Shown here: piece after piece, positions 22,801 to 39,133 of the stretch
Layout of the letters: each line of letters starts with the position of its first letter
How positions within the stretch are numbered: position 1 is the first letter of the stretch
Assembly: GCA_025464445.1 (NCBI GenBank)
Contig: JAODLY010000037.1
Location: 1 to 64,000 of the forward strand
Origin: Rhodoglobus sp.
GTDB taxonomy: Bacteria > Actinomycetota > Actinomycetes > Actinomycetales > Microbacteriaceae
Length of the DNA stretch: 64,000 nucleotides
Reading direction: 5' to 3'
The notes under the pieces: generated by a model
What the model saw: only the letters and a program-made list of their open reading frames with translations
Told to the model about the DNA's origin: nothing
Databases searched by the model: none
Position numbers and translations under genes: made by a program

Positions 22801-22895
22801 GGGCGTTCCACCAGCCGGCTCGGTTCTCGACGGACCGATTGCCGCGGTGCGCCCGCCGGCCGTCCACGCGGCTGAGCGCTCGATAGCGCGGAAAC

Positions 22896-22909
22896 TGCTC
22901 GTATGAGCA
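22896..22909. promoter_or_regulatory. Operator 1, TGCTCGTATGAGCA (probable SorC site)
   Basis: Near-perfect palindrome, 13 of 14 bases identical to the site at 33854-33867 upstream of the SorC-family regulator gene; both are followed by GACG or GACGG. It ends 5 nt before the -35 of the kinase-operon promoter, a position more typical of activation than of blocking. Confidence 0.6.
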
Positions 22910-22914
22910 GACGA

Positions 22915-22944
22915 TTGACGCGAAGAATCCGCACTCGATAGCGT
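22915..22944 (+). promoter_or_regulatory. Promoter of the kinase-aldolase-gntR-hydrolase operon
   Basis: -35 TTGACG (22915-22920), 18-nt spacer, -10 TAGCGT (22939-22944). This is the best-formed promoter in the window. Transcription should begin near 22951, giving a 31-nt leader to ATG 22982. Confidence 0.6.
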
Positions 22945-22947
22945 GCG

Positions 22948-22962
22948 CTTGTACATACTTGT
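22948..22962. promoter_or_regulatory. Possible GntR operator at the transcription start
   Basis: CTTGTACATACTTGT covers the predicted transcription start. Its core GTACATAC has the GT-N4-AC form of GntR-family sites. A GntR/UTRA gene is the third gene of this operon, so autoregulated repression is plausible. Confidence 0.35.
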
Positions 22963-22981
22963 TCAGGTACACGAGCGGACA

Positions 22982-23908
22982 ATGAAGATCGCTATTGCTG
23001 GTGGATACGGCGTCGGAATGACGATGCGTCTCGCACGTGCGCCGCGCGCCGGGGAGACGGTTTCTGGCGGCGTCCTGGCTATCGGCCCCGGCGGCAAGGG
23101 ATCGAACCAGGCAATCGCCGCGGCCAGGCTCGGTGCCAGTGCATCCCTCCTGACGGCGGTCGGCGCCGACGAGCAGGCCAGCCGGGCACGCGCCCTCTGG
23201 GCCTCGGAGGGTGTCGCCACCGGCCATGTCGTGACGACTGCCACCCCGACGATGACCGGCTTCATCCTGGTCGAGCCCGATGGCGAGAACCGCATCGCGA
23301 TCGCGCCGGGTGCGCTCGACGAGCTCGAGCCCGTGCATGTCGAGGCCTTTCGGGATGAGATCGCGAGCGCGGACATCCTGCTCGTCTCCCTGGAGATCCC
23401 CCTGGTTGCGGCCACCGCGGCCCTACGCATCGCGCGGGAGACGGGAACACCGGCGATCCTGAACCCGGCTCCAGCGGTGCGCATTGCCGATGAGGTCCTC
23501 GCGCTCGCGAGCATCCTCACGCCCAATCTCGGCGAAGCGCTCATCCTGCTCGGTGACCGCCCGGATGCCCCGGCCGACCCCGAGCGACTGGCCCGCGCCC
23601 TCGCCGATCGGTCGGGCGCGGCCGTTGTCATAACCCTCGGGGCATCCGGTTGCTTTGTCGTGGATGGGGACAACGCGTACCTGGTCCCCGCCGTCGATGC
23701 CGGTCCCGTCGTCGACACGGTCGGTGCCGGGGACGCCTTTTCCGCCGCCCTCGCTGTTGCGCTCGGCGGGGGCAGCTCACTCGAGGATGCGGTGCGTTTC
23801 GCGTCGTGCGCGGGGGCACTTGCCGTCACCATTCCCGAGGTCGTTCCGGCCCTGCCCCGGCTGGCCGATGTCGAGCGGCTGCTGCAGGCGATGGGATCGC
23901 ATGCCTGA
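22982..23908 (+). CDS. PfkB family carbohydrate kinase (ribokinase-like)
   Basis: 308 aa. Sugar-side signature GPGGKGSNQAIAAARLGA near the N-terminus and the catalytic DTVGAGDAFSAALAVAL near the C-terminus, with the ATP-side TPNLGEALILLG between. Likely phosphorylates ribose or deoxyribose released from nucleosides. It overlaps the downstream deoC-like gene by 8 nt, so a kinase feeding a 5-phosphate to an aldolase is a natural pair (deoxyribokinase is a reasonable guess). Start ATG 22982 (MKIAIAGGYGVG); the upstream in-frame ATG at 22943 lies in the promoter. Confidence 0.88.
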   Translation: MKIAIAGGYGVGMTMRLARAPRAGETVSGGVLAIGPGGKGSNQAIAAARLGASASLLTAVGADEQASRARALWASEGVATGHVVTTATPTMTGFILVEPDGENRIAIAPGALDELEPVHVEAFRDEIASADILLVSLEIPLVAATAALRIARETGTPAILNPAPAVRIADEVLALASILTPNLGEALILLGDRPDAPADPERLARALADRSGAAVVITLGASGCFVVDGDNAYLVPAVDAGPVVDTVGAGDAFSAALAVALGGGSSLEDAVRFASCAGALAVTIPEVVPALPRLADVERLLQAMGSHA

Positions 23909-24590
23909 GCCCCTCTCCGCGGCGGGCCTCGCGCCGTTCATCCAGCACACCCTCATCGAGACGGGCGTTACCAGGCAGCGCATGATCCGGCACGCGCGGG
24001 AATGCATCGAATACGGCTTCGACGCCGCGATGGTTCCCGGCTCATGGGTCGCGCTCGTCGCGGGGGAGCTGCGCGGCACCGGCATCGGCATCGCTTCAGC
24101 CATCGATTTTCCGACGGTTGGTGTCATGACTTCGGCGGGCAAGGCCGCGGAGGCCGTCGAGCTCGTGCGCCTGGGCGCGACCCAGATCGACATCGGAGTG
24201 CAGGTCGGCTGGCTCAAGAGCGGCATGATCGACGAGTTCCAGGAAGACATCGCCGGCGTCGTGCGCGCCAGCGGCGTGCCGATCAAGGTCATGCTCGAGC
24301 TGCCCCTGCTCACCATGGATGAGCGCGAACTGGCGGTGTCCCTCGCGGTCGCCGCAGGCGCCTCCTACCTGAAGAACGCGAGCAGCGGCGCGATCGAGAC
24401 CGCGAACCCGGAGAGCATCGCCTGGCTTGTGGCGCGTGCGCCCGCCGGTGTGCTGGTCAAGGCATCCGGTTCCATCAAGTCCGCGGAACAGGCCATCTCC
24501 CTCATCGAGGCCGGTGCGTCGCTTCTGGGGACGAGCGCCGGCATCGAGATCGTCACGGGCGCGGCCAGCGAGATGACGCGGGCCTACTGA
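23901..24590 (+). CDS. DeoC/LacD-type class I aldolase
   Basis: 229 aa TIM barrel of the deoxyribose-phosphate aldolase family. Three active-site positions are recognisable: Asp in QIDIGVQVG, the Schiff-base Lys in SYLKNASSG (DeoC: FIKTSTG), and the second Lys in VLVKASGSIKS (DeoC: KPAGGIR). It is more divergent than the DeoC at 34871 but not degenerate. Proposed reaction is cleavage of 2-deoxyribose-5-phosphate or a related sugar phosphate. Tight coupling to the PfkB kinase before it and the gntR gene after it (TGATG overlap). Confidence 0.8.
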   Translation: MPEPLSAAGLAPFIQHTLIETGVTRQRMIRHARECIEYGFDAAMVPGSWVALVAGELRGTGIGIASAIDFPTVGVMTSAGKAAEAVELVRLGATQIDIGVQVGWLKSGMIDEFQEDIAGVVRASGVPIKVMLELPLLTMDERELAVSLAVAAGASYLKNASSGAIETANPESIAWLVARAPAGVLVKASGSIKSAEQAISLIEAGASLLGTSAGIEIVTGAASEMTRAY

Positions 24591-25360
24591 TGATGGAGAT
24601 GTTCACACTCGGCTCAGACGCCAGTTCCACCCTCGACCGCGATTCCTCGGAGTTCCTGCACTCGCAGATCTCCGACGCGATCCGGATGACCATCGCCTCG
24701 GGTGAATGGCCGCCGCGTCACCGGCTGAAGCCCGAGCCAGAGCTCGCGATCGATCTCGGGGTGAGTCGTGGCACGCTGCGGCGCGCACTCGCGACGCTTA
24801 TCGAAGAGGGACTGCTCAAGCAGTCGCGGGGCAGGGGAACCTTCGTAACCGAGGCGCTCATCGAGCCAGCTGTCGCGCAGAAGCTGAGCACGCTGTCCGA
24901 AGACTTCGCCAGCCAGGGTGTGAACCTCAGCACCTCGGTGATCTCGGTCGACACGGGGGAGCCGCCGTCGGTGGTGGCATCACTGCTGCGGGTGCCGCAC
25001 GGCACAGCCGTACTCAGGCTGACGAGGTCGCGTGCAACCGCTGAACTGCCGATAGCCCTGCTCCGCAACTACGTGCGGCTCGATCTCGCGCCGGGCATCG
25101 AGGGGGTCGATTTCTCCACGACCACGCTCTTCGGCGCACTCGAGGGCAGCTACGGGCTCAAGATCGGCAGCGCCCGCCGCACCTTCAGTGCAGTCGCCGC
25201 CGCCGGCGAGGTCTCTCGTGCCCTCGGCGTCGCCGATGGCACGCCCGTGCAGTATCTCGAACAGTTGACGTTCCTGTCCGACGGTCGTCCCGTCGAGTAC
25301 TCGGACGTCTGGATCAACAGCGCCGAACTACGCGTTGTCACCCTGCTGGCCCGCCGATAG
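24590..25360 (+). CDS. GntR family regulator with UTRA domain
   Basis: 256 aa. The winged helix spans about residues 22-90 (FLHSQISDAIRMTIASGEWP, KPEPELAIDLGVSRGTLRRALATLIEEGLL, GRGTFV). The C-terminal UTRA effector domain (about 100-250) places it in the HutC subfamily, which usually binds sugar phosphates or amino sugars. Being inside the operon, it probably represses the promoter at 22915-22944 and responds to a pathway intermediate such as a pentose phosphate. Confidence 0.9.
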   Translation: MMEMFTLGSDASSTLDRDSSEFLHSQISDAIRMTIASGEWPPRHRLKPEPELAIDLGVSRGTLRRALATLIEEGLLKQSRGRGTFVTEALIEPAVAQKLSTLSEDFASQGVNLSTSVISVDTGEPPSVVASLLRVPHGTAVLRLTRSRATAELPIALLRNYVRLDLAPGIEGVDFSTTTLFGALEGSYGLKIGSARRTFSAVAAAGEVSRALGVADGTPVQYLEQLTFLSDGRPVEYSDVWINSAELRVVTLLARR

Positions 25361-25371
25361 AAAGAGGAAAA

Positions 25372-26322
25372 GTGACCAGGCTGATTATCGATTGCGACAC
25401 GGGAACCGACGATGCCGTCGCGATCATGGCCGCCGTGACGCACCCCGACCTCGATCTGCTCGCGGTCACGACCGTGAACGGCAACGTGCCGCTGTCGAAC
25501 ACGACCGAGAATTCACTCAGGGTGCTCGACCACCTGGGTTCGACAGTGCCCGTGTATGCCGGTTCGCCCCGGCCGATGGTGCGTGCCGATTTTCCCGTCC
25601 CGCGCGACGTGCTCAACGGCGACAAGCCGCAGTTCCAGATCCCATACCTCGACCTGCCCCCTTCGGTGACGCCGGTGCGTGAGCAGGGCGCTGTCGCCTT
25701 CCTCATCGACTACTACATGGACGATGCGAACACCGACACCGTGCTCGTGGCGACCGGCCCGCTCACCAATGTCGCCCTCGCGCTCGCCGCAGAGCCGCGG
25801 TTGGCGCAGCGGATACCCCAACTCGTGCTCATGGGGGGTGCGAGGGGCTGGGGCAACGTCACAGCGGTCGCCGAGTTCAACATCTGGGTGGACCCCGAGG
25901 CCGCCGAATCGGTGCTCTCCGCCGGCATCCGTGATGTCGTCATGGTGCCGCTGGATGCGACCCACAGTGCCCAGGTGAGCCTCGAAGACTGCGACGCTTT
26001 CGACGCGATCGGAACACCGGCGGCCACGGCATCGGCGTCGATCATCAGGCATCGCATCGTGAACTATCCGGATGCAGCCGACGCCGTGCGCCTGACCGCC
26101 CCCGTACATGATGCGATCTGCGTCGCCTTCCTCACCAACCCGGAGGTACTCGAGGAATTCGACAGCTATCCGGTACGGGTCGAGACGGCGGGCACCCACA
26201 CCGTCGGCGAGACGGTGATCGACATGCGCCCGTGGTCGGAGGAACCGCGAAACGCGCGGGTCGCACTGCGCGCGAACGCGCAGGTTTTCGTCAAGTTCCT
26301 CTCAGATGCGTTCTCGTCTTGA
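25372..26322 (+). CDS. Nucleoside hydrolase (IUNH family) 1
   Basis: 316 aa. Calcium-binding and ribose-binding motif near the N-terminus IIDCDTGTDDAVAIMAAV (DxDxGxDD), LMGGA in the middle, EFNIWVDPEAAE for ribose contacts, and the catalytic-region His in APVHDAICVAF. It hydrolyses the N-glycosidic bond of nucleosides to base plus ribose. Start GTG 25372 has a strong AGAGGAAA site. Base specificity is not visible. It ends 224 nt before the ECF transporter genes. Confidence 0.92.
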   Translation: MTRLIIDCDTGTDDAVAIMAAVTHPDLDLLAVTTVNGNVPLSNTTENSLRVLDHLGSTVPVYAGSPRPMVRADFPVPRDVLNGDKPQFQIPYLDLPPSVTPVREQGAVAFLIDYYMDDANTDTVLVATGPLTNVALALAAEPRLAQRIPQLVLMGGARGWGNVTAVAEFNIWVDPEAAESVLSAGIRDVVMVPLDATHSAQVSLEDCDAFDAIGTPAATASASIIRHRIVNYPDAADAVRLTAPVHDAICVAFLTNPEVLEEFDSYPVRVETAGTHTVGETVIDMRPWSEEPRNARVALRANAQVFVKFLSDAFSS

Positions 26323-26546
26323 CCATGTGTTGCGGCGACGAGCATCCTGTGACGCGGGCGATGCCCGCCAGATCCCCGTCCGGCTGGCGGTGACCTCATG
26401 ACACCCATCGAGGTCATCATCACGCGGCCTGACGGTCGGCTCCACGAGAGCACGGGAGGCCGCCCAACATAGACCGACGGCATTCCAGATCCAGGCCGGC
26501 AGCGTTGCCGGTCCATATCCATCACCATCTGAAAGGCAACAACACA
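26323..26546 (+). promoter_or_regulatory. Structured leader upstream of the ECF transporter
   Basis: 224 nt without a gene. Several stems can be drawn: GCGGGC/GCCCGC (26354-26359 with 26363-26368), CCGCCAG/CTGGCGG (26365-26371 with 26384-26390), TGACCTC/GAGGTCA (26391-26397 with 26410-26416), GCGGCCT/AGGCCGC (26424-26430 with 26457-26463) and CCGGCA/TGCCGG (26496-26501 with 26506-26511). The first two share 26365-26368 and so exclude each other, as in an attenuator. A weak TTGACC -35 lies at 26319-26324. No known riboswitch class is recognised. Confidence 0.4.
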
Positions 26547-27263
26547 ATGTCATCTGCCCCCGTTGCATCCGCCCCGATGAAGAGCCGGATAAATCGCAAT
26601 AACCTCCCCACGACCCTCATCGTGACGCTCATCCCCGTCTGCGTGGCGCTCAATATCGTCGGTGGCTACATCGCCTCGGCGCTTCGGCTGCCGGTCTACC
26701 TGGACATGATCGGAACGGCGATCTCGGCAATCGTGCTCGGTCCGTGGTGGGGCGCGCTCGTCGGCGTCCTGACCAATGGCGGGTCCGCTCTCATCAGCGG
26801 CCCGGTCAGCCTCCCGTTCGCGCTCGTCAACGTCGTCGGCGCGCTCCTCTGGGGCTACGGCGTGCGCTCCTGGAAGATGGGCCGCACGATCCCGCGGTTC
26901 TTCCTCCTCAACGTGATCGTCGCCGTGGCGTGCACCATCGTGGCCGCTCCGATCATCGTCCTCGTCTTCGGCGGCGCTACCGGCAACGGAGCGGATGCGC
27001 TCACCGGAACGTTCCTGGCGGTCGGGCAGAACCTGGTCGGCTCCGTGTTTTCGTCGAACATCCTGACGTCATTGGCGGACAAGATCATCGGCGGATTCGT
27101 GGCGTTGGCCATCATCGAGGCGTTACCGAAATCCTTGACGGCGAACATCGACATCGTCAAGGCGACACCGCTCAAGGGCATCCTGCTCGCCGTCGCGGGC
27201 ATCGTCATCGGCGTGCTGATCATCGTGATCTTCCTCGCCATCAACGCGGGCTCCGGAGCCTGA
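26547..27263 (+). CDS. ECF transporter substrate-binding S component
   Basis: 238 aa integral membrane protein with six hydrophobic helices. The N-terminal ALRLPVYLDMIGTAISAIVLG and GALVGVLTNGGSALIS resemble ECF S components; such proteins bind one small nutrient with high affinity. Its substrate is not given by sequence, but the genes on both sides make a nucleoside the strongest candidate. ATG 26547 is preceded by GAAAGG. It is followed by a hairpin and then the two ATPases and the T component, so the whole transporter is encoded together (group I layout). Confidence 0.82.
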   Translation: MSSAPVASAPMKSRINRNNLPTTLIVTLIPVCVALNIVGGYIASALRLPVYLDMIGTAISAIVLGPWWGALVGVLTNGGSALISGPVSLPFALVNVVGALLWGYGVRSWKMGRTIPRFFLLNVIVAVACTIVAAPIIVLVFGGATGNGADALTGTFLAVGQNLVGSVFSSNILTSLADKIIGGFVALAIIEALPKSLTANIDIVKATPLKGILLAVAGIVIGVLIIVIFLAINAGSGA

Positions 27264-27279
27264 CGAACCACAACTGACG

Positions 27280-27315
27280 CCGGGGATGACACGCGACACC
27301 GCGCGTCATCCCCGG
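27280..27315 (+). terminator. Intercistronic hairpin between S and A genes
   Basis: CCGGGGATGAC (27280-27290) pairs perfectly with GTCATCCCCGG (27305-27315) and the stem can extend inward. The ATPase ribosome-binding site AAGGAGAG follows at once. It may partly terminate transcription or protect the S-component mRNA, making more S protein than ATPase. Confidence 0.6.
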
Positions 27316-27328
27316 TCCAAGGAGAGCA

Positions 27329-28195
27329 ATGCCTGAGCCAATCATTATTTTCGACGACGTCACGTACACCTACCCGGGAACGGAGGAGCCAGCGCTCCAC
27401 TCGATCTCGTTCCAGATCGAGCCAGGCGAATACGTCGCGATTCTCGGCCTCAACGGGGCGGGCAAGACCACCACCGGCTTGTGCGTCAACGGGGTCGTGC
27501 CCACGATGCTCGGCGGCGAGCTGACCGGCAAGGTCACCGTCGGCGGGCTCGACGTGGCCGATTACCCGGTGCGTGAGATGTCGAAACTTGTCGGGATGGT
27601 CTTCGACAACCCCGAATTCCAGATGAGCCAGATGTCCGCGGCCGAGGAGGTCGCCCTAGGCCTGGAGAATGCCGGCGTCCCATATGAGGAGATGATGCGG
27701 ATCATCCCCGAAACCCTCGAACTCGTCGGCCTGGCCGGCTTCGAGGAGCGCTCGCCCCTCGCCCTGTCGGGCGGGCAGCAGCAGCGCCTCGCCATCGCGG
27801 CCGTGCTCGCGATGAAGCCGCAGATCCTGATCATGGACGAGCCAACCTCGAACCTCGACCCGATCGGCAAGCAGGAGGTGTTCGACATGGCGGCCAAGCT
27901 CAACCGCGAGCGCGGGATGACCGTGATCGTGATCGAGCACGAAGTCGAAGTCATGGCGCGCTACGCCGACCGGGTGATCGTGCTCGAGGCCGGGCGGATC
28001 GTCATGAACGGAACCCCGCAGGAGATCTTCGGACGAGTCGATGAACTCGCCGCCCTCAAGCTGCGGGTTCCGGCGGCTGCCGAACTCGCGAAGGTGCTCG
28101 GCTCGGAGTACGGCCTCTGGAAGGGACCGGCCCCCATCACCACCGAACCCGCCGTCAAGGCGATCAACGAACTGCTGGGAGCGAACCGTGGCTGA
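27329..28195 (+). CDS. ECF transporter ATPase A1 (EcfA/CbiO type)
   Basis: 288 aa ABC ATPase with all motifs: Walker A GLNGAGKTT, Q-loop VFDNPEFQM, signature LSGGQQQR, Walker B ILIMDEPTSNLD and switch His in IVIEHEVE. The C-terminal extension of about 60 residues is typical of ECF ATPases. It pairs with the A2 ATPase whose gene overlaps it by 8 nt. Strong ribosome-binding site AAGGAGAG before ATG 27329. Confidence 0.93.
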   Translation: MPEPIIIFDDVTYTYPGTEEPALHSISFQIEPGEYVAILGLNGAGKTTTGLCVNGVVPTMLGGELTGKVTVGGLDVADYPVREMSKLVGMVFDNPEFQMSQMSAAEEVALGLENAGVPYEEMMRIIPETLELVGLAGFEERSPLALSGGQQQRLAIAAVLAMKPQILIMDEPTSNLDPIGKQEVFDMAAKLNRERGMTVIVIEHEVEVMARYADRVIVLEAGRIVMNGTPQEIFGRVDELAALKLRVPAAAELAKVLGSEYGLWKGPAPITTEPAVKAINELLGANRG

Positions 28196-29075
28196 GACCA
28201 TCCAGGGCCAGGGCGGCCTCGCCATCGATGTCCGCCAGGCGCGCTACGTCTATCCGAGCGGCAACGTCGTCGCCCTCGGCGGTGTCGACCTCGCGGTCGA
28301 GCACGGCGAGATCATCGGGATCATCGGCCAGAACGGGTCGGGCAAGACGACGCTCACCAAGCTCTTCAACGGCCTGCTCAAGCCCACGTCAGGCTCGGTG
28401 ATCATCAACGGCATCGACACCGCCAAGCGCACTGTGCAGCAGATGGCGCCGCACGTCGGATATGTCTTCCAGAATCCGAACCACCAACTCTTCGCGCGCA
28501 CCGTGCAGATGGAACTGGAGTTCGGTCCGAGGAACATCGGTGTTCCGGAGGACCAGATTGCCGAGCGGGTCGCGGAGGCCGTCGAATTCTTCGGGCTGCA
28601 GGAGTTCGTTGAAGAGCATCCCTACCGCGTCAGCTTTCCGGTGCGCAAGCTCGTCGGCATCGCGTCGATCGTCGCCATGCGACCACCGATCATCATCTTC
28701 GACGAACCGTCGACCGGCCAGGACCACAACACCACCCACATCATCAACGGGCTCATGCGCCGCCTGCGCGAGCAGGGCACCACGGTGGTCTGCGTTTCCC
28801 ACGACATGCCGCTGCTGGCCGACGTCGTGGAGCGGGTGATCGTGATGAAGAGCACCGAGATCATTGCGGACGCCTCGCCTCGCGAAGTGTTCGCGGACAA
28901 GGCGCTCATGGCCAGGACGAACCTCCAGGCCCCGCAGGTAACCGAGATCGCCCTCGAAACGGTGGTTCCTCTCGGCGGGCCTGTTGCCTTGACCACCGAG
29001 GAACTCGCCGCAGACATTGCGAGCCGGGCCGGCAGCAAATCGAAAACGTCGCGCTCCTCCGCGACCGTGCGCTGA
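28188..29075 (+). CDS. ECF transporter ATPase A2 with degenerate signature
   Basis: 295 aa. Walker A GQNGSGKTT, Q-loop VFQNPNHQLF, Walker B IIIFDEPSTGQD and switch His VSHDMP are intact. At residues 148-155 the ABC signature LSGGQxxR is replaced by VSFPVRKL, so the ATP site formed by A1's Walker A and A2's signature is probably weak or inactive, while the opposite site keeps all residues. The C-terminal tail is Ser/Ala/Lys-rich. GTG 28188 overlaps the A1 gene. Confidence 0.9.
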   Translation: MAETIQGQGGLAIDVRQARYVYPSGNVVALGGVDLAVEHGEIIGIIGQNGSGKTTLTKLFNGLLKPTSGSVIINGIDTAKRTVQQMAPHVGYVFQNPNHQLFARTVQMELEFGPRNIGVPEDQIAERVAEAVEFFGLQEFVEEHPYRVSFPVRKLVGIASIVAMRPPIIIFDEPSTGQDHNTTHIINGLMRRLREQGTTVVCVSHDMPLLADVVERVIVMKSTEIIADASPREVFADKALMARTNLQAPQVTEIALETVVPLGGPVALTTEELAADIASRAGSKSKTSRSSATVR

Positions 29076-29089
29076 GAGAAGGACACGAC

Positions 29090-29983
29090 ATGTCGATGCA
29101 AGCAGCACTGCCTATCGCGATGATCCCGGGAAACTCGATCATCCACCGCATCAACCCCCTCGCCAAGCTGGTGTGGGTCGTGGGATACGTCGTTCTCGCG
29201 TTCTCGACGCAGAACATCATCATCCTGTACTCGATGGCCGCGTTCGCCCTGCTCCTGGCACCGATCGCGGGCGTGACGAGGCCATTGCTGAAGGGCGCGC
29301 TCATCCTCGTTCCGGTGGGCTCGTCTCTCCTGGCCCTGCAGATCATCGCCCCGGCGGTCGAGCGCCCCTGGACAATCGTCGACCAGCTCGGACCGCTGTC
29401 GCTCTACGGCGACGGCGTCTACTACGGCTTCGTGCTGCTCGGCCGGATCGTGGCATCCCTGCTGCTCGCCCTCATCATGGTGATGACGACCCACCCGAGC
29501 GATCTCTTCACCTCGTTCGCCAAGTTGAAGGTGCCGTACACCCTCAATTTCATGCTCGCGATGACGCTGCAACTCATCCCCGTGTTCCAGCGCGAGGTCG
29601 GCATCATCATGAGCGCACAGAAGTCGAGGGGCATGAAGGGGAGCGGTTTCTCGGCGGTGCTGCCGAGCTTCGTGCCCGTATTCGTGGGAGCTATCGAGCG
29701 CGTGCAGCAGCTGTCGATCTCCCTCGAGTCCAGGGGGTTCGGCTCCAACGGCATCAAGACCAGCTACCGCCAGGTCAAGGGTCGTCCGAGCGACTGGGTT
29801 ATCGGCATTATCGGCGTGCTTGTCGTGGCTTACCTCTCGACGATCTCGATCATGAGGGGCACTTGGAGCCTCGCGACGGAGATCACCTTCTCGCCGCTCT
29901 TCGTGCTCGTTACGTTCCTGGTCGCGGCGTCGCTGTTCGCGTGCGTCGTGCTCGCCGCGGTGTTGTTCTCATTCAAGAAATAG
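29090..29983 (+). CDS. ECF transporter transmembrane T component
   Basis: 297 aa EcfT. N-terminal membrane helices begin near residue 28, followed by the cytoplasmic coupling-helix region with two x-R-G motifs (KSRGMKG and ESRGFGSNG) that insert into the two ATPases, then C-terminal helices. IPGNSIIHRINPLAKLVW at the N-terminus is a family hallmark. It sits 14 nt after A2 and completes the transporter. A short GCCGG/CCGGC hairpin (29983-29996) follows the stop. Confidence 0.92.
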   Translation: MSMQAALPIAMIPGNSIIHRINPLAKLVWVVGYVVLAFSTQNIIILYSMAAFALLLAPIAGVTRPLLKGALILVPVGSSLLALQIIAPAVERPWTIVDQLGPLSLYGDGVYYGFVLLGRIVASLLLALIMVMTTHPSDLFTSFAKLKVPYTLNFMLAMTLQLIPVFQREVGIIMSAQKSRGMKGSGFSAVLPSFVPVFVGAIERVQQLSISLESRGFGSNGIKTSYRQVKGRPSDWVIGIIGVLVVAYLSTISIMRGTWSLATEITFSPLFVLVTFLVAASLFACVVLAAVLFSFKK

Positions 29984-30022
29984 CCGGCCTTCCGGCCTGC
30001 GCACTACAGAAAGTGATTCACC

Positions 30023-31563: not shown

Positions 31564-32870
31564 GTGCGGATGTCGCCCGGCTTGCCGCGGCGATGCCCGA
31601 ATACGCCACCCGAATGTCTTCGCACCAGCGCAGGAATTTCCTGCTGCTGATGCTCGACGGGGCGACGTTCTCGTTCGCGATCTCACTGCTTTCCGAGACG
31701 ACGATCCTGCCGGCGTTCGTGCAGGCACTCACGGGAAGCTCAGTGCTCGTCGGTCTCGTCGCGGCGACCTACGCGATCGGCCATTACCTGCCGCAGCTGC
31801 TCGGCGCCCACTTGGGGCGCGGGCGGGCGCGGCGCAAGCCGCTGCTGCTGGCGATCGTGATCTCTGAGCGTGTCGGGATCCTCGCCATCGCGATCACCGC
31901 CCAGTTGATCGGTGTGGTCGACTCCGGCACCGTCGTGCTCCTGTTCTTTCTTGCTTTCTGCGTTTACGCGGTCACGACCGGTCTCATCGGGCCGGTCTAC
32001 GGCGATTTCGTGGCGAAGGCCCTCACGCGGGGCCGAGGATGGTTCTACGGGATCACCCAGCTCTTCGGGGGCGTGCTCGGCTTCAGCGCGGCTCTCGTGG
32101 CCGAATCGATCATCAAGTCCCACCCGTTCCCTGGGGGGATCCAACTGTGCTTCTGGATATGCTTCGCCCTCTCCTTCCTCTCGATCGTGTTCGTCGCGAG
32201 CCTGAAAGAGGAGCCGTACCCCAACGTCGAGGCGCGCCCCTCGCTCCTGGCGACGTTCGCCGAGATTCCCGCGATCCTGAGGGGCGACAGGTCCTACGCG
32301 CGTTACCTCGTAGCCCGTTCGGTGCTCGCACTGGCAACGCTTGGCGTTGGCTTCGTCGCCGTCAATGGGATCGCGACGGTGCTGCGCCCGTCGGATGCCG
32401 CACTGCTCGCAGCGGTCTTCATCCTCTCGCAGGCCGTGCTCGGCTTCGCCGTCGGCCTCGCCGGTAACTACCTGGGCTTCAAGGTCGTCGTCATTCTCGG
32501 GGGGATACTGCTGGCGGCCGGCATGGCCGGCGCCATGATCGCCGACTCGGTGCCCGCCTACCTGCTGGTGTTCGTCGCGCTGGGCGGAGCCAACGCGGTG
32601 ACGATCATCGCCGACCCGAACATGTCGATCGAGTTCGCTCCGCCGGATCGCACGAGCCTGTACCTCGGCACGACCTCGACACTGCTCGCGCCGTTCTTCG
32701 TGCTGGGGCCGCTGATCGCGGGCGTCGCCGCCGGTGCGCTGGGCTATCCGGTCGTCTTCGCGGCCGCGGGCGTGCTGGCCATCGCTGGGGTGCTGCTGGC
32801 GCTCAGGGTGAAGGAACCGCGCCGGATCGAGATCGTGGAGGCCTACGGTCAACCGGGGGCGCTCCCGTGA
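31554..32870 (+). CDS. MFS transporter in the nucleoside operon
   Basis: 438 aa with 12 hydrophobic helices; a short N-terminal cytoplasmic stretch, then LLLMLDGATFSFAISLLSE, and a loop with LGRGRARRKPLLL. The middle loop is about 35 residues. It overlaps the preceding phosphorylase by 10 nt and the next hydrolase by 4 nt, so it is an integral operon member; it could export a free base or import a second nucleoside. No subgroup recognised. Confidence 0.85.
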   Translation: MALSADVARLAAAMPEYATRMSSHQRRNFLLLMLDGATFSFAISLLSETTILPAFVQALTGSSVLVGLVAATYAIGHYLPQLLGAHLGRGRARRKPLLLAIVISERVGILAIAITAQLIGVVDSGTVVLLFFLAFCVYAVTTGLIGPVYGDFVAKALTRGRGWFYGITQLFGGVLGFSAALVAESIIKSHPFPGGIQLCFWICFALSFLSIVFVASLKEEPYPNVEARPSLLATFAEIPAILRGDRSYARYLVARSVLALATLGVGFVAVNGIATVLRPSDAALLAAVFILSQAVLGFAVGLAGNYLGFKVVVILGGILLAAGMAGAMIADSVPAYLLVFVALGGANAVTIIADPNMSIEFAPPDRTSLYLGTTSTLLAPFFVLGPLIAGVAAGALGYPVVFAAAGVLAIAGVLLALRVKEPRRIEIVEAYGQPGALP

Positions 32871-33820
32871 GTGGCGACATGACCCGTCGCATGATCATCG
32901 ATACCGACACGGCTGCTGACGACAGCTTTGCCCTCCTGGTCGGGCTGCTGCATCCGCGGGCCAGCATCGAGGCCATCACGATCGTCTCGGGGAATGTCGA
33001 TTTCGACCAGCAGGTGCAGAACGCGCTCATCACCGTCGAGGCGGCCGGCCGGTCGGGGGAGGTGCCCGTTCATCTCGGTGCGCGGGTGCCGATGGCGCGC
33101 CCATGGTACGCGGCGAGTGCCCACGGGGATGGCAAGGGAAACCATGACTTCCCGGCGCCGGCGCAGCTGCCGAGCGACGAGGGCGCCGCCGAGGCGATAG
33201 CGCGCATCGTCCGCGAGAACCCCGGGGAGATCGACATCCTCGCGATCGGACCGCTGACCAATATCGCGACGGCGGTGCTGCTCGACCGAGAGCTCGCGTC
33301 CAACGTGCGGCAGCTGTGGATCATGGGCGGCTGCGACAACTCGGTCGGCAACGTGACGGCGGCGGCGGAATACAACTTCTACGTCGATCCTGAGGCTGCG
33401 GACATCGTGCTGCGTGCGGGATTCGACGTGACAATCGTCACGTGGACGATCACCCTCGCGCAGGCGCTCTGGACGCGTGACCAGCTCGACGAGATCCGCT
33501 CCATCGGCACGTCGCTGTCCGACTTCTTCACCATCCTGGACACCCCGAACCTCGAGTACAACGAGGGGGTCGCCATCATGGGCAGCACTCACCCCGACTC
33601 GCTCACCGCGATGTTGCTGGTGCAGCCGGAGCTCATCCTGCGCTCGTCGAGGCAGTTCGTCGCCGTCGAGCACGTCAGCGACCTGACCCGCGGTTACTCC
33701 CTTTTCGACCGCCGCGCGGCCAGGAATGCGCCGAATGCGACGGTCATCGATGAGATCGACGCCACCGGCTTCTTCGAGGCATACAAGGCACTCCTCACCA
33801 GCGGCAGGCACACCGGCTGA
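32867..33820 (+). CDS. Nucleoside hydrolase (IUNH family) 2
   Basis: 317 aa. N-terminal MIIDTDTAADDSFALLVG is a DxDxxxDD variant lacking the usual Gly, followed by GPLTNIATAVLL, IMGGC, EYNFYVDPEAAD and a C-terminal STHPDSLTA with His-Pro-Asp. It belongs to a different branch from hydrolase 1. Predicted to split nucleosides to base and ribose. Last gene before the SorC promoter region. Confidence 0.88.
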   Translation: MSGDMTRRMIIDTDTAADDSFALLVGLLHPRASIEAITIVSGNVDFDQQVQNALITVEAAGRSGEVPVHLGARVPMARPWYAASAHGDGKGNHDFPAPAQLPSDEGAAEAIARIVRENPGEIDILAIGPLTNIATAVLLDRELASNVRQLWIMGGCDNSVGNVTAAAEYNFYVDPEAADIVLRAGFDVTIVTWTITLAQALWTRDQLDEIRSIGTSLSDFFTILDTPNLEYNEGVAIMGSTHPDSLTAMLLVQPELILRSSRQFVAVEHVSDLTRGYSLFDRRAARNAPNATVIDEIDATGFFEAYKALLTSGRHTG

Positions 33821-33853
33821 GGCGCGCGCGTGTGCGAGCGGCGAGCCAGAGTA

Positions 33854-33867
33854 TGCTCATATGAGCA
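33854..33867. promoter_or_regulatory. Operator 2, TGCTCATATGAGCA (SorC site)
   Basis: Perfect 14-bp palindrome, 16 nt upstream of the -35 of the sorC promoter. It differs at one base from the site at 22896. A second small palindrome ACATATGT lies at 33877-33884. Confidence 0.65.
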
Positions 33868-33883
33868 GACGGCGCCACATATG

Positions 33884-33912
33884 TTGCGAGCGGCGCGGAT
33901 GAAACCTAGCGT
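33884..33912 (+). promoter_or_regulatory. Promoter of the sorC-deoC-aldh operon
   Basis: -35 TTGCGA (33884-33889), 17-nt spacer, -10 TAGCGT (33907-33912), the same -10 as the first island promoter. The leader carries GGAGG before ATG 33930. Confidence 0.55.
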
Positions 33913-33929
33913 GGGGTCGGAGGTGCGCG

Positions 33930-34874
33930 ATGAATGAATCAACTGAACTGCTCTCGGTTCGAGTGGCCGAGCTCTATTACGAAGAGAGCAAGACCCAGGA
34001 TGAGATCGGCGCGCTGCTGGGCGTTACCAGGTGGAAGGTCGGTCGCCTGCTCGCCTATGCCCGCGATGAGGGCATCGTGCGCATCGAGATCGTGCATCCG
34101 AGGGCCAGGCGACTCGCGGTCGAGCGCGAACTCCGAGAACGTTTCGGCCTGCAGGATGCGGTCGTCGTGCCGGTTCCGATCGTGGCCAGCGAACTCGGGG
34201 GTCGAGTCTCACAGGCAGCCGCCGACTTCCTCGCCGCGATGCGGCCGGTTCCCCGTGTGCTCGGGGTCAGCTGGGGCCGCACGCTCAGCGATGTGGCCGA
34301 GCACCTCGCGATGGGCTGGGCGGTCGGCGTGAAGGTCGTGCAGATCAATGGGGGCGTCAGCCTCAACCGCCGGCCGGGCACCGCGGCGAACACGGCCGTG
34401 ATGATCGCCCATAAGGCCAGCGGACAAGCGATGCTGCTGCCTAGCCCCGCGATCCTCGAACGCATCGAGACCAAGCTCGCGATCGAGTCGGATCGCACTG
34501 TCGCGAGCGTCCTCGGACTCGCCGCCGAGGCGTCCGCCTATCTCTACAGCGCAGGGGTGGCGGACAGGAGTTCGGTGCTTGTCGATAGCGGGTACCTGAC
34601 CTCGGCAGACGTGGACGAACTGGTGCGCAAAGGAGCGGTCGGGGACGTCGTGGGCCGATACATCGACGCCAACGGGAACATCGTCGACCCTGGCCTCAAT
34701 GAGCGTACGGTTGGTTTAGGGCTCGATGAACTAAGGACCGCGCAGACCTCGATCTTCGTCGTGGCTGGCGAACACAAGCATGACGTGGCCCGCGCGGTCG
34801 TCACGAGCGGTCTCTGCACGGTGATAGTGACCGATGAGGCCACGGCGCAGAGCCTCCTGGAGGAAATTTCATGA
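33930..34874 (+). CDS. SorC family sugar-responsive transcriptional regulator
   Basis: 314 aa. N-terminal helix-turn-helix (VAELYYEESKTQDEIGALLG followed by VTRWKVGRLLAYARDEGIV) and the large C-terminal sugar-phosphate-binding domain with LGVSWGRTLSDVAEHL. SorC/DeoR-like regulators sense phosphorylated sugars; B. subtilis DeoR, which belongs to this family, binds deoxyribose-5-phosphate. Its neighbours deoC and rbsK make that effector likely here. It probably acts on the palindromes at 22896 and 33854. Stop overlaps the deoC ATG. Confidence 0.9.
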   Translation: MNESTELLSVRVAELYYEESKTQDEIGALLGVTRWKVGRLLAYARDEGIVRIEIVHPRARRLAVERELRERFGLQDAVVVPVPIVASELGGRVSQAAADFLAAMRPVPRVLGVSWGRTLSDVAEHLAMGWAVGVKVVQINGGVSLNRRPGTAANTAVMIAHKASGQAMLLPSPAILERIETKLAIESDRTVASVLGLAAEASAYLYSAGVADRSSVLVDSGYLTSADVDELVRKGAVGDVVGRYIDANGNIVDPGLNERTVGLGLDELRTAQTSIFVVAGEHKHDVARAVVTSGLCTVIVTDEATAQSLLEEIS

Positions 34875-35884
34875 CACTCGAATCTGCCCAGGCACTCGCA
34901 CCCGCGGAGCGGGCCGTCGGGCTCATCGGATCCGACCTCACCGAGAAGAGTCTCAGGCTGCATCTCGAGGGCCTTCCCGGCGTCGATGCCGTCGGGCTCG
35001 AACAGCGGGCGGCTGGTCTCGGCACACGCTCCATCAAAACCACATCGAAGGCGCGCGCCCTCGACACGATAATCAGGCTCATCGACCTCACGACTCTCGA
35101 GGGCGCAGACACCCCTGGCAAGGTGCGCTCGCTCGTCGCCAAGGCAATGAACCCCGATCCGTCAGACCCATCCACGCCTCGGGTTGCTGCCGTTTGCGTG
35201 TATGGCGACATGGTGCCCTACGCGGTCGAAGCACTCGGCGCCTCCCACGGCGACCCGGCGAAGGGGCTCATCAGCGTCGCCGCGGTCGCGACGGCGTTCC
35301 CGAGCGGGCGGGCATCCCTGCACGTCAAGCTCGCGGACACGGCCGACGCCGTCGCCAATGGTGCTGACGAGATCGACATGGTGATCGACCGCGGCGCCTT
35401 CCTTGCAGGCAACTACGGCCTGGTCTTCGACCAGATCGTGGCGGTCAAGGATGCCTGCCGCCGCGAAGACGGCAGCTACGCCCACCTCAAGGTCATCCTC
35501 GAGACCGGCGAGCTGAACACCTATGACAACGTGCGCAGGGCGTCATGGCTGGCCATCCTCGCGGGCGGCGACTTCATCAAGACGTCCACGGGCAAGGTTG
35601 CGCCGGCGGCGACGCTGCCTGTGACCCTGCTCATGCTCGAAGTGGTGCGCGACTGGCACCGCCTCACGGGCGAGCGCATCGGCGTGAAGCCGGCCGGCGG
35701 CATCCGCAGCTCAAAGGACGCGATCAAGTACCTCGTGACCGTGGCGGAGACGGCGGGGGAGGAGTGGCTCGATCCGCACCTGTTCCGTTTCGGTGCGTCA
35801 TCCCTGCTCAACGACGTGTTGCTGCAACGCCAGAAACTCACCACCGGCCGCTACTCGGGCCCCGACTACGTGACGATTGACTGA
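34871..35884 (+). CDS. deoC: Deoxyribose-phosphate aldolase
   Basis: 337 aa DeoC of the longer type (as in eukaryotic DERA, with about 70 extra N-terminal residues). Active-site positions: Asp in EIDMVIDRG, Schiff-base Lys in DFIKTSTGKV, second Lys in GVKPAGGIRSS. Cleaves 2-deoxyribose-5-phosphate to glyceraldehyde-3-phosphate and acetaldehyde. The following aldehyde dehydrogenase, 2 nt downstream, would remove the acetaldehyde. Confidence 0.95.
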   Translation: MTLESAQALAPAERAVGLIGSDLTEKSLRLHLEGLPGVDAVGLEQRAAGLGTRSIKTTSKARALDTIIRLIDLTTLEGADTPGKVRSLVAKAMNPDPSDPSTPRVAAVCVYGDMVPYAVEALGASHGDPAKGLISVAAVATAFPSGRASLHVKLADTADAVANGADEIDMVIDRGAFLAGNYGLVFDQIVAVKDACRREDGSYAHLKVILETGELNTYDNVRRASWLAILAGGDFIKTSTGKVAPAATLPVTLLMLEVVRDWHRLTGERIGVKPAGGIRSSKDAIKYLVTVAETAGEEWLDPHLFRFGASSLLNDVLLQRQKLTTGRYSGPDYVTID

Positions 35885-35886
35885 AC

Positions 35887-37365
35887 ATGACTGAGATCTC
35901 GACCAGCCCCACGCACAGCTTCCTGGACTACGCGCCCGCGCCGGAGTCGAAGTCGATCCTGCACCTGAAGAAGAGCTACGGGCTCTTCATCGGCGGTGAG
36001 TTCGTCAAGGGCAGCGGCAAGCCGTTCCTGACCGTCTCGCCGTCCACCGAGGAGACGATCGCCGAGATCGCCAATGCGAGCGCGAAAGACGTGGATGCCG
36101 CGGTCGCCGCAGCCCGAAAGGCGTACGACAGCACCTGGAGGAAGCTCTCCGGCGCCGACCGCGGCAAGTACCTGTTCCGCATCGCGCGGCTCGTGCAGGA
36201 GCGCGCCCGTGAACTGGCCGTCGCGGAGAGCCTCGACAACGGCAAACCGATAAAGGAGTCACGCGACGTCGACGTGCCCCTCGTGGCCGCCTGGTTCTTC
36301 TACTACGCCGGCTGGGCCGACAAGCTCGACTACGCCGGTCTCGGCCCCAACCCGAAGGCTCTCGGGGTGGCGGCCCAGGTCATCCCGTGGAACTTCCCGC
36401 TGCTCATGCTCGCCTGGAAGATCGCCCCTGCGCTCGCCGCGGGCAACACTGTCGTGATCAAGCCCGCCGAGACCACGCCCCTGTCTGCACTGATTTTCGC
36501 GGAGATCCTGCAGCAGGCCGACCTGCCTGCCGGCGTCGTGAATATCATCACGGGCGCCGGGGACACCGGGGAGGCGCTCGTCAACCACCCCGACGTCAAC
36601 AAGGTCGCCTTCACCGGCTCGACGGCCGTCGGCCGGGCGATCGCGAAGTCGACAGCCGGCAGCGGCAAGAAGCTCACCCTCGAGCTGGGCGGCAAGGCGG
36701 CAAACATCGTCTTCGACGACGCCCCCATCGACCAGGCCGTCGAGGGCATAGTCAACGGGATCTTCTTCAACCAGGGCCACGTCTGCTGCGCCGGCTCGCG
36801 GCTGCTCGTGCAGGAGAACGTGCACGAGGAGGTCGTCGAGCGCCTCAAGACGAGGCTCGCGACGCTGCGGCTGGGCGACCCGCTCGACAAGAACACCGAT
36901 ATCGGGGCGATCAACTCGCGCGAACAGCTCGACCGCATCCGCACCCTGAGCGACATCGGCGAGAAGGAGGGCGCAGAGCGCTGGACGGCGCCCTGCGTCA
37001 TCCCGGACAAAGGCTTCTGGTTCGCGCCGACGATCTTCGACAACGTCTCGACGAGCTCGACGATCGCGCGTGAGGAGATCTTCGGCCCCGTGCTGAGTGT
37101 GCTCACCTTCCGCACCCCCGCCGAGGCGATCGCGAAGGCCAACAACACGCCATACGGCCTGTCGGCAGGCATCTGGAGCGACAAGGGTTCGAAGATCCTC
37201 GCCGTGGCAGATGAGCTGCGTGCCGGCGTGATCTGGGCGAACACATTCAACCGCTTCGACCCCGCAAGCCCGTTCGGTGGCTACAAGGAGTCGGGCTACG
37301 GGCGCGAAGGCGGCAGGCACGGGCTCGCGGCCTACCTGTCGAGCGCAGGATGGGGTGCGAAATGA
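35887..37365 (+). CDS. NAD(P)-dependent aldehyde dehydrogenase
   Basis: 492 aa. Cofactor-binding VIPWNFPLLMLAWKIAPALAAGN and FTGSTAVGR, general base Glu in LELGGKAANIVF, and catalytic Cys in NQGHVCCAGSR; the substrate-exit motif EEIFGPVLSV is near the C-terminus. Probably oxidises acetaldehyde from DeoC to acetate. Its stop overlaps the start of a second, shortened ALDH gene; together they resemble the two halves of ALDH16 enzymes. Confidence 0.94.
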   Translation: MTEISTSPTHSFLDYAPAPESKSILHLKKSYGLFIGGEFVKGSGKPFLTVSPSTEETIAEIANASAKDVDAAVAAARKAYDSTWRKLSGADRGKYLFRIARLVQERARELAVAESLDNGKPIKESRDVDVPLVAAWFFYYAGWADKLDYAGLGPNPKALGVAAQVIPWNFPLLMLAWKIAPALAAGNTVVIKPAETTPLSALIFAEILQQADLPAGVVNIITGAGDTGEALVNHPDVNKVAFTGSTAVGRAIAKSTAGSGKKLTLELGGKAANIVFDDAPIDQAVEGIVNGIFFNQGHVCCAGSRLLVQENVHEEVVERLKTRLATLRLGDPLDKNTDIGAINSREQLDRIRTLSDIGEKEGAERWTAPCVIPDKGFWFAPTIFDNVSTSSTIAREEIFGPVLSVLTFRTPAEAIAKANNTPYGLSAGIWSDKGSKILAVADELRAGVIWANTFNRFDPASPFGGYKESGYGREGGRHGLAAYLSSAGWGAK

Positions 37366-38219
37366 CAAGGCTGGCGGTCCCCAAGACCTACAAGCTCTAC
37401 ATCGGCGGCAAGTTCCCGCGCAGTGAGAGCGGGCGCACCTACGAGGTGCTCTCGAAGAAGGGTGTTTTCCTCGCCAACGCATCCCTGGCAAGCCGCAAGG
37501 ATGCCCGTGACGCGGTAGTGGCTGCGCGCGCCGCCCTCGGCGGATGGTCGGGAGCCACGGGTTACAACCGCGGCCAGGTGCTGTACCGCATCGCCGAGTT
37601 GCTCGAGGGGCGCAGGGACCAGTTCGTCGAGGAAGTGATCGCGACGGAGGGTGTCTCCAAGGCCGCAGCGACGAGCCAGGTCGACATCGCCATCGACGCC
37701 TGGGTCTGGTACGCCGGCTGGGCCGACAAGTACGTGCAGGTCGCGGGCAACGGCAACCCGGTGAGCGGGCCGTACTTCAACCTCTCGACCCCTGAGCCGA
37801 CAGGCGTGGTCGCAATCGTCGCCCCGCAGCAGGGCAATTCGCTCCTCGGGCTCGTGAGCGTCATCGCGCCGGCGATACTCACGGGCAACACCGTCGTGGT
37901 CATCGCATCCGAGGCCGCGCCCCTCGCTGCGGTGAGCCTCGCCGAGGTTCTCGCAACGAGCGACGTCCCCGGCGGCGTGGTCAACATCCTCACCGGCTCG
38001 CCCGCGGAGATCGCCCCATGGCTCGCCGGCCACGCCGACGTGAACGCGCTCGACCTCGCCGGCGCCCAGTCCCTCGACTGGGTCGACCTGCAGGTTGTCG
38101 CAGCAGACACCCTCAAGCGCGTGCTCGCGCCGGAGAGCGGCGCGCCAGCGCCCTCACTGGAGCGGATCGTCGCGTTCACAGAGACCAAGACCGTCTGGCA
38201 CACCAAGTCGCTGCTCTGA
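37362..38219 (+). CDS. Truncated ALDH-like protein, no catalytic domain
   Basis: 285 aa, about 60 percent of a normal ALDH. The N-terminal part (KTYKLYIGGKFPRSESGRT through WVWYAGWADKY) and the cofactor-fold region (GVVAIVAPQQGNSLLGL) align with ALDH, but the sequence ends soon after NILTGSPAEIA; the domain with the catalytic Cys and Glu is missing. The reading frame is intact and tightly coupled on both sides (ATGA overlaps), so this is a maintained protein, not decay. It probably binds the active ALDH encoded just upstream as a structural partner. Confidence 0.82.
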   Translation: MTRLAVPKTYKLYIGGKFPRSESGRTYEVLSKKGVFLANASLASRKDARDAVVAARAALGGWSGATGYNRGQVLYRIAELLEGRRDQFVEEVIATEGVSKAAATSQVDIAIDAWVWYAGWADKYVQVAGNGNPVSGPYFNLSTPEPTGVVAIVAPQQGNSLLGLVSVIAPAILTGNTVVVIASEAAPLAAVSLAEVLATSDVPGGVVNILTGSPAEIAPWLAGHADVNALDLAGAQSLDWVDLQVVAADTLKRVLAPESGAPAPSLERIVAFTETKTVWHTKSLL

Positions 38220-39133
38220 TGGCAGCCGCAGCCGTCGTCGTCGTGGGAAGTGCAAACGTCGACCAGGTATTCCGGGTGGCCCGCATTCCCTCGCCCGGCG
38301 AGACGGTGCTCTCGAGCGGATTCACCATCGCTCTGGGCGGCAAGGGCCAGAACCAGGCAGTCGCTGCCGCGCGCGCCGGGGCGGCGACGACCTTCATCGC
38401 TGCGGTCGGCACCGATGCTTTTGGTGCGGCGATGCGCGACGGTCTCGCGACGGACGGCATCGACGCGACGCTGCTGCGCACCGTGGATGGGCCCAGTGGC
38501 ACTGCGCTCATCGCCGTCGACGATTCGGGCGAGAACACGATAATCGTCGAGCCAGGGGCCAACGCCGCGCTGGAAGGGCTGACCGCCTCCGACCGGGAGG
38601 CCATCGCCGCTGCCGCCGTGCTCGTCATGCAACTCGAGATCCCCCTCGCCACGGTCGCCGAAGCCGCGGATGCCGCAGCAGCGACCCCAACGACCGTGCT
38701 GCTGAATGCCGCCCCGATCCGCGACCTGCCAGATGCCCTCATCGCCGCGCTCGACATCCTGGTCGTGAACGAGCACGAGGCCGCCCACCTCGAGGCGTCC
38801 CGTCCCGGTGTCACGCTGCTGGACCTCGTGCCCGTGGTCGTCGTGACCCGCGGCGCCCGCGGCGCCCTGTTGCAGGTGCGAGGCAGTGCTGATGTGCTGG
38901 TTGCCGCGCCATCCGTGAGGGCAGTCGATGCGACGGGCGCGGGCGACACCTTCTGCGGCGCGCTCGCGGCGGCCCTGGCGGCCGGGCAGCCGATCGAGTC
39001 GGCGGTGCGCTTTGCGGTGGTCGCGGCATCCCTCTCGGTAGAGACGGCTGGGGCGGTTCCATCCATTCCGGGGAAGGCCGCGATTGACGCTCGCGTCACC
39101 GCTGAGCTCGACCTGGAAACGGGTAACCGGTGA
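38219..39133 (+). CDS. rbsK: Ribokinase
   Basis: 304 aa. N-terminal VVVVGSANVDQVFRVARIPSPGET is a classic ribokinase opening, then LGGKGQNQAVAAARAGA and the catalytic DATGAGDTFCGALAAAL. VVNEHEAAHLE matches the N-x-x-E motif. Phosphorylates ribose (or deoxyribose) at C5. ATG 38219 overlaps the ALDH-like stop. It ends the island's second operon and is only moderately similar to the PfkB kinase at 22982. Confidence 0.9.
   Translation: MAAAAVVVVGSANVDQVFRVARIPSPGETVLSSGFTIALGGKGQNQAVAAARAGAATTFIAAVGTDAFGAAMRDGLATDGIDATLLRTVDGPSGTALIAVDDSGENTIIVEPGANAALEGLTASDREAIAAAAVLVMQLEIPLATVAEAADAAAATPTTVLLNAAPIRDLPDALIAALDILVVNEHEAAHLEASRPGVTLLDLVPVVVVTRGARGALLQVRGSADVLVAAPSVRAVDATGAGDTFCGALAAALAAGQPIESAVRFAVVAASLSVETAGAVPSIPGKAAIDARVTAELDLETGNR

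Follow-up and report, generated by a model that had tools for sequence, protein, structure and literature searches.

The 64,000-nucleotide stretch of Rhodoglobus sp. DNA analysed here (hereafter the window) contains an island in which the genes of an energy-coupling factor (ECF) transporter lie among genes for nucleoside breakdown. It spans positions 22982–39133 and comprises 17 genes with open frames, all on the plus strand, which form three packed blocks as judged from the two widest intergenic gaps, upstream of EcfS (224 bp) and SorC (109 bp). The block orders are PfkB1-DeoC1-GntR-NH1, EcfS-EcfA-EcfA'-EcfT-UP1-UP2-MFS-NH2, and SorC/DeoR-DeoC2-ALDH-ALDHb-PfkB2. Genes were assigned by searches against family models (Pfam, TIGR/NCBIfam), and the enzymes were also aligned with solved relatives. 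A previous reading made from the letters alone (the sequence-only reading) had listed about 15 consecutive same-strand genes; the common strand and all gene families it named were recovered as open plus-strand frames by the family searches, whereas the number of genes had to be corrected. The features of the island are as follows.

22896–22909, no strand: candidate SorC/DeoR operator 1, palindrome TGCTCGTATGAGCA, 86 bp before PfkB1
22948–22958, no strand: CTTGTACATAC, possible GntR-type site before PfkB1; weak, seen by eye in relatives
22982–23908, plus: PfkB1, ribokinase-type kinase (family search, alignment to solved relatives)
23901–24590, plus: DeoC1, divergent deoxyribose-phosphate aldolase (TIGR model, alignment)
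24590–25360, plus: GntR/UTRA regulator (family search)
25372–26322, plus: NH1, nucleoside hydrolase, closest solved relative the pyrimidine-type RihA (family search, alignment)
26432–26543, plus: conserved leader before EcfS, with hairpin 26439–26451, a variable hairpin, hairpin 26496–26511 and a purine-rich end
26547–27263, plus: EcfS, predicted substrate-binding component (family search, fold)
27329–28195, plus: EcfA, ATPase with LSGGQ (family search, motif comparison)
28188–29075, plus: EcfA', ATPase with degenerate signature VSFPVRK (family search, motif comparison)
29090–29983, plus: EcfT, CbiQ-type transmembrane coupling subunit (family search)
30023–30805, plus: UP1, uridine-phosphorylase-type (family search, alignment, motif)
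30802–31563, plus: UP2, uridine-phosphorylase-type, FYGQ motif with Glu in place of Gln (family search, alignment, motif)
31554–32870, plus: MFS carrier (family search)
32867–33820, plus: NH2, nucleoside hydrolase, closest solved relative 3t8i (family search, alignment)
33854–33867, no strand: candidate SorC/DeoR operator 2, palindrome TGCTCATATGAGCA, 76 bp before SorC
33930–34874, plus: SorC/DeoR-type regulator (family search)
34871–35884, plus: DeoC2, deoxyribose-phosphate aldolase (family search)
35887–37365, plus: ALDH, aldehyde dehydrogenase, interpreted as the first part of a split ALDH16 (family search)
37350–38219 (start uncertain), plus: ALDHb, truncated ALDH-like partner, taken as second half of the split ALDH16 (family search, alignment)
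38219–39133, plus: PfkB2, ribokinase-type kinase (family search)

Behind PfkB2, a GDSL-type lipase/acylhydrolase gene follows on the same strand after 57 bp (39190–39759 of the window); a relative of this gene was not found in the DNA of the other loci, which mostly ends before its position.

Conservation of the neighbourhood and a shared palindrome

The gene order is kept in 10 of 11 loci with an EcfS 90–94% identical to that of the island, while the eleventh ends inside EcfS. The search of related genomes, which the sequence-only reading had proposed as a check, revealed a neighbourhood conserved in Microbacteriaceae and retained in reduced form by Pontimonas, two Rhizobiaceae, and Actinopolymorpha; the result that would have refuted the proposal, a neighbourhood missing from every relative, did not occur. 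Since relatives share the gene order, the arrangement is more than chance. On the opposite strand of the Actinopolymorpha locus, a dihydropyrimidinase-like gene (recognised by eye) and an AA_synth gene were found, which we counted in favour of a nucleoside-related function. In Mesorhizobium, genes for a PhyH-type dioxygenase and an AraC regulator precede the ECF block (L037:8078-9864); the dioxygenase may perhaps perform an added step on nucleosides.

The palindrome TGCTCATATGAGCA upstream of SorC recurs with one mismatch, as TGCTCGTATGAGCA, upstream of PfkB1. In the host genome it occurs twice with at most one mismatch, both times in the island, and four more sites have two mismatches; within the window, 0.10 matches with up to two mismatches are expected by chance and two were observed. 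With the same tolerance, it precedes SorC in 10 of 10 loci carrying this gene (window included). Of the 11 loci testable for PfkB1, 10 have it upstream of that gene (L035 lacks it, and L027 has it with three mismatches). Pontimonas has the palindrome 100 bp before the PfkB1 frame, and no SorC gene was present in the stretch examined. Because this palindrome is shared, the two ends of the island appear to belong to a single SorC/DeoR regulon, in which the two copies would be the SorC binding sites, i.e. candidate operators.

The ECF transporter

EcfS has a confident S-component fold with one extra C-terminal helix compared to vitamin S components, and reaches 121 bits against the NCBIfam model of the CD3073 S component (NF045596), below the curated cut-off of 180. 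EcfT beside it belongs to the CbiQ family (PF02361; 116.6 bits, cut-off 25). For the two ECF-type ATPases, the best models were TIGR04520 (263.9 bits) and TIGR04521 (231.9 bits), with scores below the equivalog cut-offs of 315 and 330.

Walker A and Walker B motifs are present in both EcfA and EcfA'. In all 14 close loci, the LSGGQ signature is intact in EcfA and degenerate in EcfA', so that 0 of 14 have LSGGQ in both ATPases, as would be expected of a characterised pair; the solved EcfA2 4mki keeps LSGGQ in the alignment. A degenerate second ATPase is also encoded in 10 of 12 more distant loci with EcfT, and for the other two (L058, L101) the comparison covered only the intact ATPase. Because EcfA' lacks LSGGQ, we predict that one ATP site of the pair is weak; this trait is shared across the subfamily. 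Judged from these motifs, the signature loss in EcfA' is best regarded as a variant of the motor, not as a defining loss.

Related S components and their neighbours

The relatives of EcfS represent a sample, and their tree of 62 S domains was built by a quick method, 24 of its 59 inner branches being weak. EcfS groups with 15 close relatives and with 14 S domains that carry an additional, fused N-terminal domain (support 99); the remaining S genes linked to EcfT and to nucleoside genes split off at deeper, less well supported nodes, and four stand-alone S genes adjoining a nucleoside hydrolase gene form one clade. Beyond the close group, EcfT adjoins a further 12 S genes; within 7 kb, a nucleoside hydrolase gene accompanies 10 of them and a uridine-phosphorylase-type gene one more (L103). 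By comparison, 2 to 6 hydrolase-family genes each were counted in four complete genomes of 3.2 to 8.0 Mb. As a control, 20 hand-picked biotin-ECF (BioY) regions from 19 genomes were searched with the same profiles (57 of 60 genomes listed had a BioY match), and nucleoside hydrolase, uridine phosphorylase, PfkB, and DeoC genes were found in 0 of 20 neighbourhoods; these control regions all belong to the host's family and gave no EcfT with the EcfT profile either; the 12 test loci, by contrast, stem from several Actinobacteria and Clostridia.

These neighbours bear on the question whether the ECF transporter could import ribose, deoxyribose, a base, or an externally made nucleotide, not the intact nucleoside. 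The substrates of PfkB and DeoC enzymes are indeed sugars and sugar phosphates, and the MFS carrier of the same block could carry the nucleosides. However, a nucleoside-cleaving enzyme is encoded within 7 kb in 11 of the 12 distant EcfT-linked relatives and would be useless if sugar alone entered, and no counterpart of the MFS gene was detected in the Actinopolymorpha cluster. We therefore consider import of such a fragment or nucleotide improbable.

In two loci of the stand-alone clade (L102, L107), the gene after S shows weak radical SAM similarity, with scores of 50.6 and 48.3 bits against TIGR01210 (cut-off 212). Because this layout of nucleoside hydrolase, S, and radical SAM-like gene is that of the published queuosine operon, the S genes are probably QrtT and the sets QueK-QrtT-QueL, providing a precedent for a nucleoside-importing ECF transporter within the same S superfamily. 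The ECF transporter of the island might likewise serve to salvage queuosine or another modified nucleoside, with the hydrolase freeing the base for tRNA, as QrtT and the hydrolase QueK do in C. difficile (PMC11477304). Yet the island has no radical SAM gene but kinases, aldolases, phosphorylases, and an ALDH pair, and TGT gave no match in the host genome, which is 99.6% complete. Without TGT in the host, queuosine salvage was rejected; another modified nucleoside might still be the one salvaged, but we give salvage of this kind as a whole hardly any weight.

Further members of the superfamily differ in their context. In L095, L096, and L098–L100, the S gene adjoins a gene for a small conserved protein with an SHCILN...QLPCPE motif, and with such a neighbour the true CD3073 probably has another substrate. 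The closest EcfS relatives outside the island consist of an S domain and an N-terminal soluble domain that resembles a DNA-binding helix-turn-helix (HTH). This fused clade (n = 14, support 97) is located away from EcfT and comprises L041–L046, L048–L051, L053–L055, and L057, with L048:9652-10656 and L041:9647-10570 as examples and L046 cut at the 5′ end. The N-terminus of L048 matched HTH_31 with 18.2 bits, under the cut-off of 27, and the family search gave no match for L049 or the N-terminus of L043; the fused proteins are possibly membrane-anchored regulators with an S-type sensor. By eye, the same S domain was also recognised inside long HD-GYP-like signalling proteins (L106, L108; group L106, L108, L110–L112), together with ion-channel-like and ROK-kinase-like parts in one protein (L065, grouped with L066), and directly behind a channel-like frame (L109, L113).

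Catabolic enzymes and host setting

UP1 and UP2 scored 267.3 and 274.6 bits against TIGR01718, both just below the cut-off of 280.3, and have uridine phosphorylase 3qpb as best solved match. The two nucleoside phosphorylases of the sequence-only reading are thus present and can be specified as uridine-phosphorylase type. Within the FYGQ motif, whose Gln presumably contacts uracil, UP1 has Gln in 14 of 14 relatives checked and UP2 has Glu in all 13 relatives having UP2. One locus carries a third uridine-phosphorylase-type gene between NH2 and SorC (L033:12156-12950; 43% to UP1).

The presence of two DeoC-type aldolases was also borne out: DeoC1 has no Pfam match at E 0.001, but reaches 148 bits against TIGR00126 (deoC), above the cut-off of 117.3. 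It aligns best with solved deoxyribose-phosphate aldolases, and PfkB1 with ribokinases. The best solved match of NH2 (3t8i) is deposited as purine nucleosidase IunH-2. Alignments to solved enzymes revealed that the aldolase lysines and the hydrolase aspartate cluster, which we take to be catalytic, are retained. ALDH matches Aldedh with 541.7 bits, and its ALDH-like partner ALDHb, already noted by the sequence-only reading, matches best the second domain of ALDH16 (6mvu/6mvr). The catalytic ALDH domain and the truncated second domain that make up an ALDH16 are therefore both present, but encoded by two genes.

A separate cluster of the host (L071) encodes PNP, a PGM/PMM mutase, adenosine deaminase, a third nucleoside hydrolase, pyrimidine/thymidine phosphorylase, and cytidine deaminase, in addition to PTS IIA, PTS IIB, and two BPD_transp_2 permeases. 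The host has three PGM/PMM-family genes in total, one of them directly behind PNP in this cluster, while the best DeoB score in the host was 20.7 bits (cut-off 341.2). The lack of a phosphopentomutase inside the island, previously regarded as unusual, was hence rejected as an anomaly: it is ordinary given the PGM/PMM mutase in L071, and the route via hydrolase, kinase, and DeoC needs no mutase.

The leader upstream of EcfS

The leader of two short hairpins with a variable hairpin between them is kept in 11 loci (window included), weakly in L031. The leader model, built from these 11 leaders, had no match in L036, L037, L039, and L040, and no Rfam family matched up to E 10. Across the 11 sequences, changes on both sides were observed in 5 of 11 pairs, a value reached in 10 of 500 shuffles, and the covariation score was reached in 12 of 500; further pair types showed no excess (279 of 500). 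RNAalifold keeps 8 pairs, and the mean z-score of the folding energy is −1.35 (−1.01 for the middle hairpin alone). Taken from these alignments, the structure signal appears modest. In L029, L030, L033, and L035, the upstream GntR-type frame extends into the element according to computed frame ends, so that conservation there may be partly coding. The leader could be either an RNA element or a protein operator.

Among 299 genomes of the host's family, the leader model reached at least 34 bits in five (G000, G041, G113, G865, and G809 with 34.3), with one match each; matches in 35 further genomes were at most 26.6 bits and were taken as chance. Strong matches are restricted to genomes and sites with the island. 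With five genomes out of 299, a widespread RNA regulon is not supported.

Proposed function

The best explanation is that the island forms one regulon for nucleoside catabolism with a nucleoside-importing ECF transporter, to which we assign a probability of about 80%. This coupling of an ECF importer to nucleoside breakdown, proposed by the sequence-only reading, is well supported by the conserved neighbourhood, the association of the S family with nucleoside genes against a clean control, and the shared operator. Gene content, the EcfS fold, conservation, the association of the S family with nucleoside-cleaving enzymes, and the shared palindrome are direct observations; the nucleoside substrate of EcfS, the flux, and the sites and ligands of the regulators are what we infer. 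EcfS would bind an extracellular nucleoside or deoxynucleoside, and the EcfAA'T motor with its one degenerate ATPase site would drive import. NH1 and NH2 would hydrolyse the nucleoside to base and (deoxy)ribose, which PfkB1 and PfkB2 would phosphorylate to the 5-phosphate; alternatively, UP1 and UP2 would cleave with phosphate, and the 1-phosphate would be isomerised by the mutase encoded elsewhere. DeoC1 and DeoC2 would convert deoxyribose-5-phosphate to glyceraldehyde-3-phosphate and acetaldehyde, and the split ALDH16 pair would oxidise the acetaldehyde, with acetate as the end product expected from the pathway. SorC/DeoR, probably responding to a pentose phosphate, would control both ends via the shared palindrome, with GntR adding local control.

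Several observations weigh against this explanation. A classical cluster with BPD_transp_2 permeases is already present in the host, so the ECF transporter would add a second route, perhaps with higher affinity or for a different nucleoside subset. One distant locus (L061) has EcfT and neither a hydrolase nor a phosphorylase gene within 7 kb. No nucleoside genes are near the six S genes whose proteins exceed the CD3073 cut-off (L095–L100); the 14 fused S domains have a nucleoside hydrolase or EcfT gene nearby in 0 of 14 and a uridine-phosphorylase-type gene in 1 of 14 cases (L044), and 7 further S fusions lack a nearby nucleoside hydrolase. With these CD3073 members and fusions, the superfamily is not uniformly nucleoside-linked. 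Finally, by fold the solved protein nearest to EcfS is a riboflavin S component, though all S components look alike. EcfS might accordingly be an importer of a vitamin, e.g. riboflavin or thiamine, located in a nucleoside operon by chance; in view of the conserved gene order we judge this very unlikely. Nucleoside import for catabolism remains our preferred explanation. A broader scenario is speculative and rather doubtful as a whole: nucleosides would be taken up as food, not as a micronutrient, by an entire family of ECF transporters that share a single degenerate ATPase site. This family would have spread between Actinobacteria and Rhizobiales and would be controlled by DeoR and by an RNA leader of a new kind that senses nucleosides, and one branch of its S component would have turned into a membrane-anchored DNA-binding regulator.

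If true, nucleoside import would give a substrate class to a part of the S family that NCBI calls putative, and would widen the role of ECF transport to include carbon supply. In the isolate Salinibacterium soli WY-16 (L029; EcfS 94% identical), too, a single block holds the importer, the breakdown enzymes, and the two-site regulon, which makes the idea directly testable.

Comparison with known systems

According to PMC7329351, ECF transporters take up vitamins and other micronutrients. The S fold, a CbiQ-type EcfT, and two ABC ATPases are common to the island and the vitamin systems RibU, ThiT, FolT, BioY, and PanT; in contrast, the island has catabolic neighbours, an EcfA' without LSGGQ, and the extra C-terminal helix of EcfS. 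The sequence-only reading had considered a catabolic nucleoside ECF locus unusual, which holds in part: ECF architecture with a nucleoside substrate is already known from queuosine, whereas no dedicated catabolic nucleoside ECF transporter with an asymmetric motor turned up in open-licence PMC literature (titles and abstract starts, among the matches listed), nor did a paper on CD3073. In C. difficile, QrtT imports queuosine, and its gene is accompanied by that of the hydrolase QueK (PMC11477304). This system shares with the island an S component encoded beside a nucleoside hydrolase and, presumably, a nucleoside as the substrate. Sets of this type (L102, L107) have an S gene without adjacent EcfA, A', and T genes and with a radical SAM gene next to it, while the island has a dedicated motor, kinases, and aldolases in a host without TGT.

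The island shares with the host cluster L071 nucleoside hydrolase, phosphorylases, and pentose breakdown. Classical nucleoside clusters use an ABC importer of the BMP/Nup type. L071 differs from the island in its BPD_transp_2 permeases, PNP, PGM/PMM mutase, adenosine and cytidine deaminases, and pyrimidine phosphorylase. As in a deo operon, a SorC/DeoR-type regulator, DeoC2, and ALDH follow in a row, but in the island this set is tied by the palindrome to the ECF genes, and ALDH16, known with both domains in one chain, is split into ALDH and ALDHb. The uridine operon of C. glutamicum comprises a ribokinase, a uridine carrier, and the hydrolase UriH, and thereby has the same hydrolase-kinase route; NH1 scored 236 bits against the UriH model (cut-off 450), and to this route the island adds the ECF importer, phosphorylases, and aldolases.

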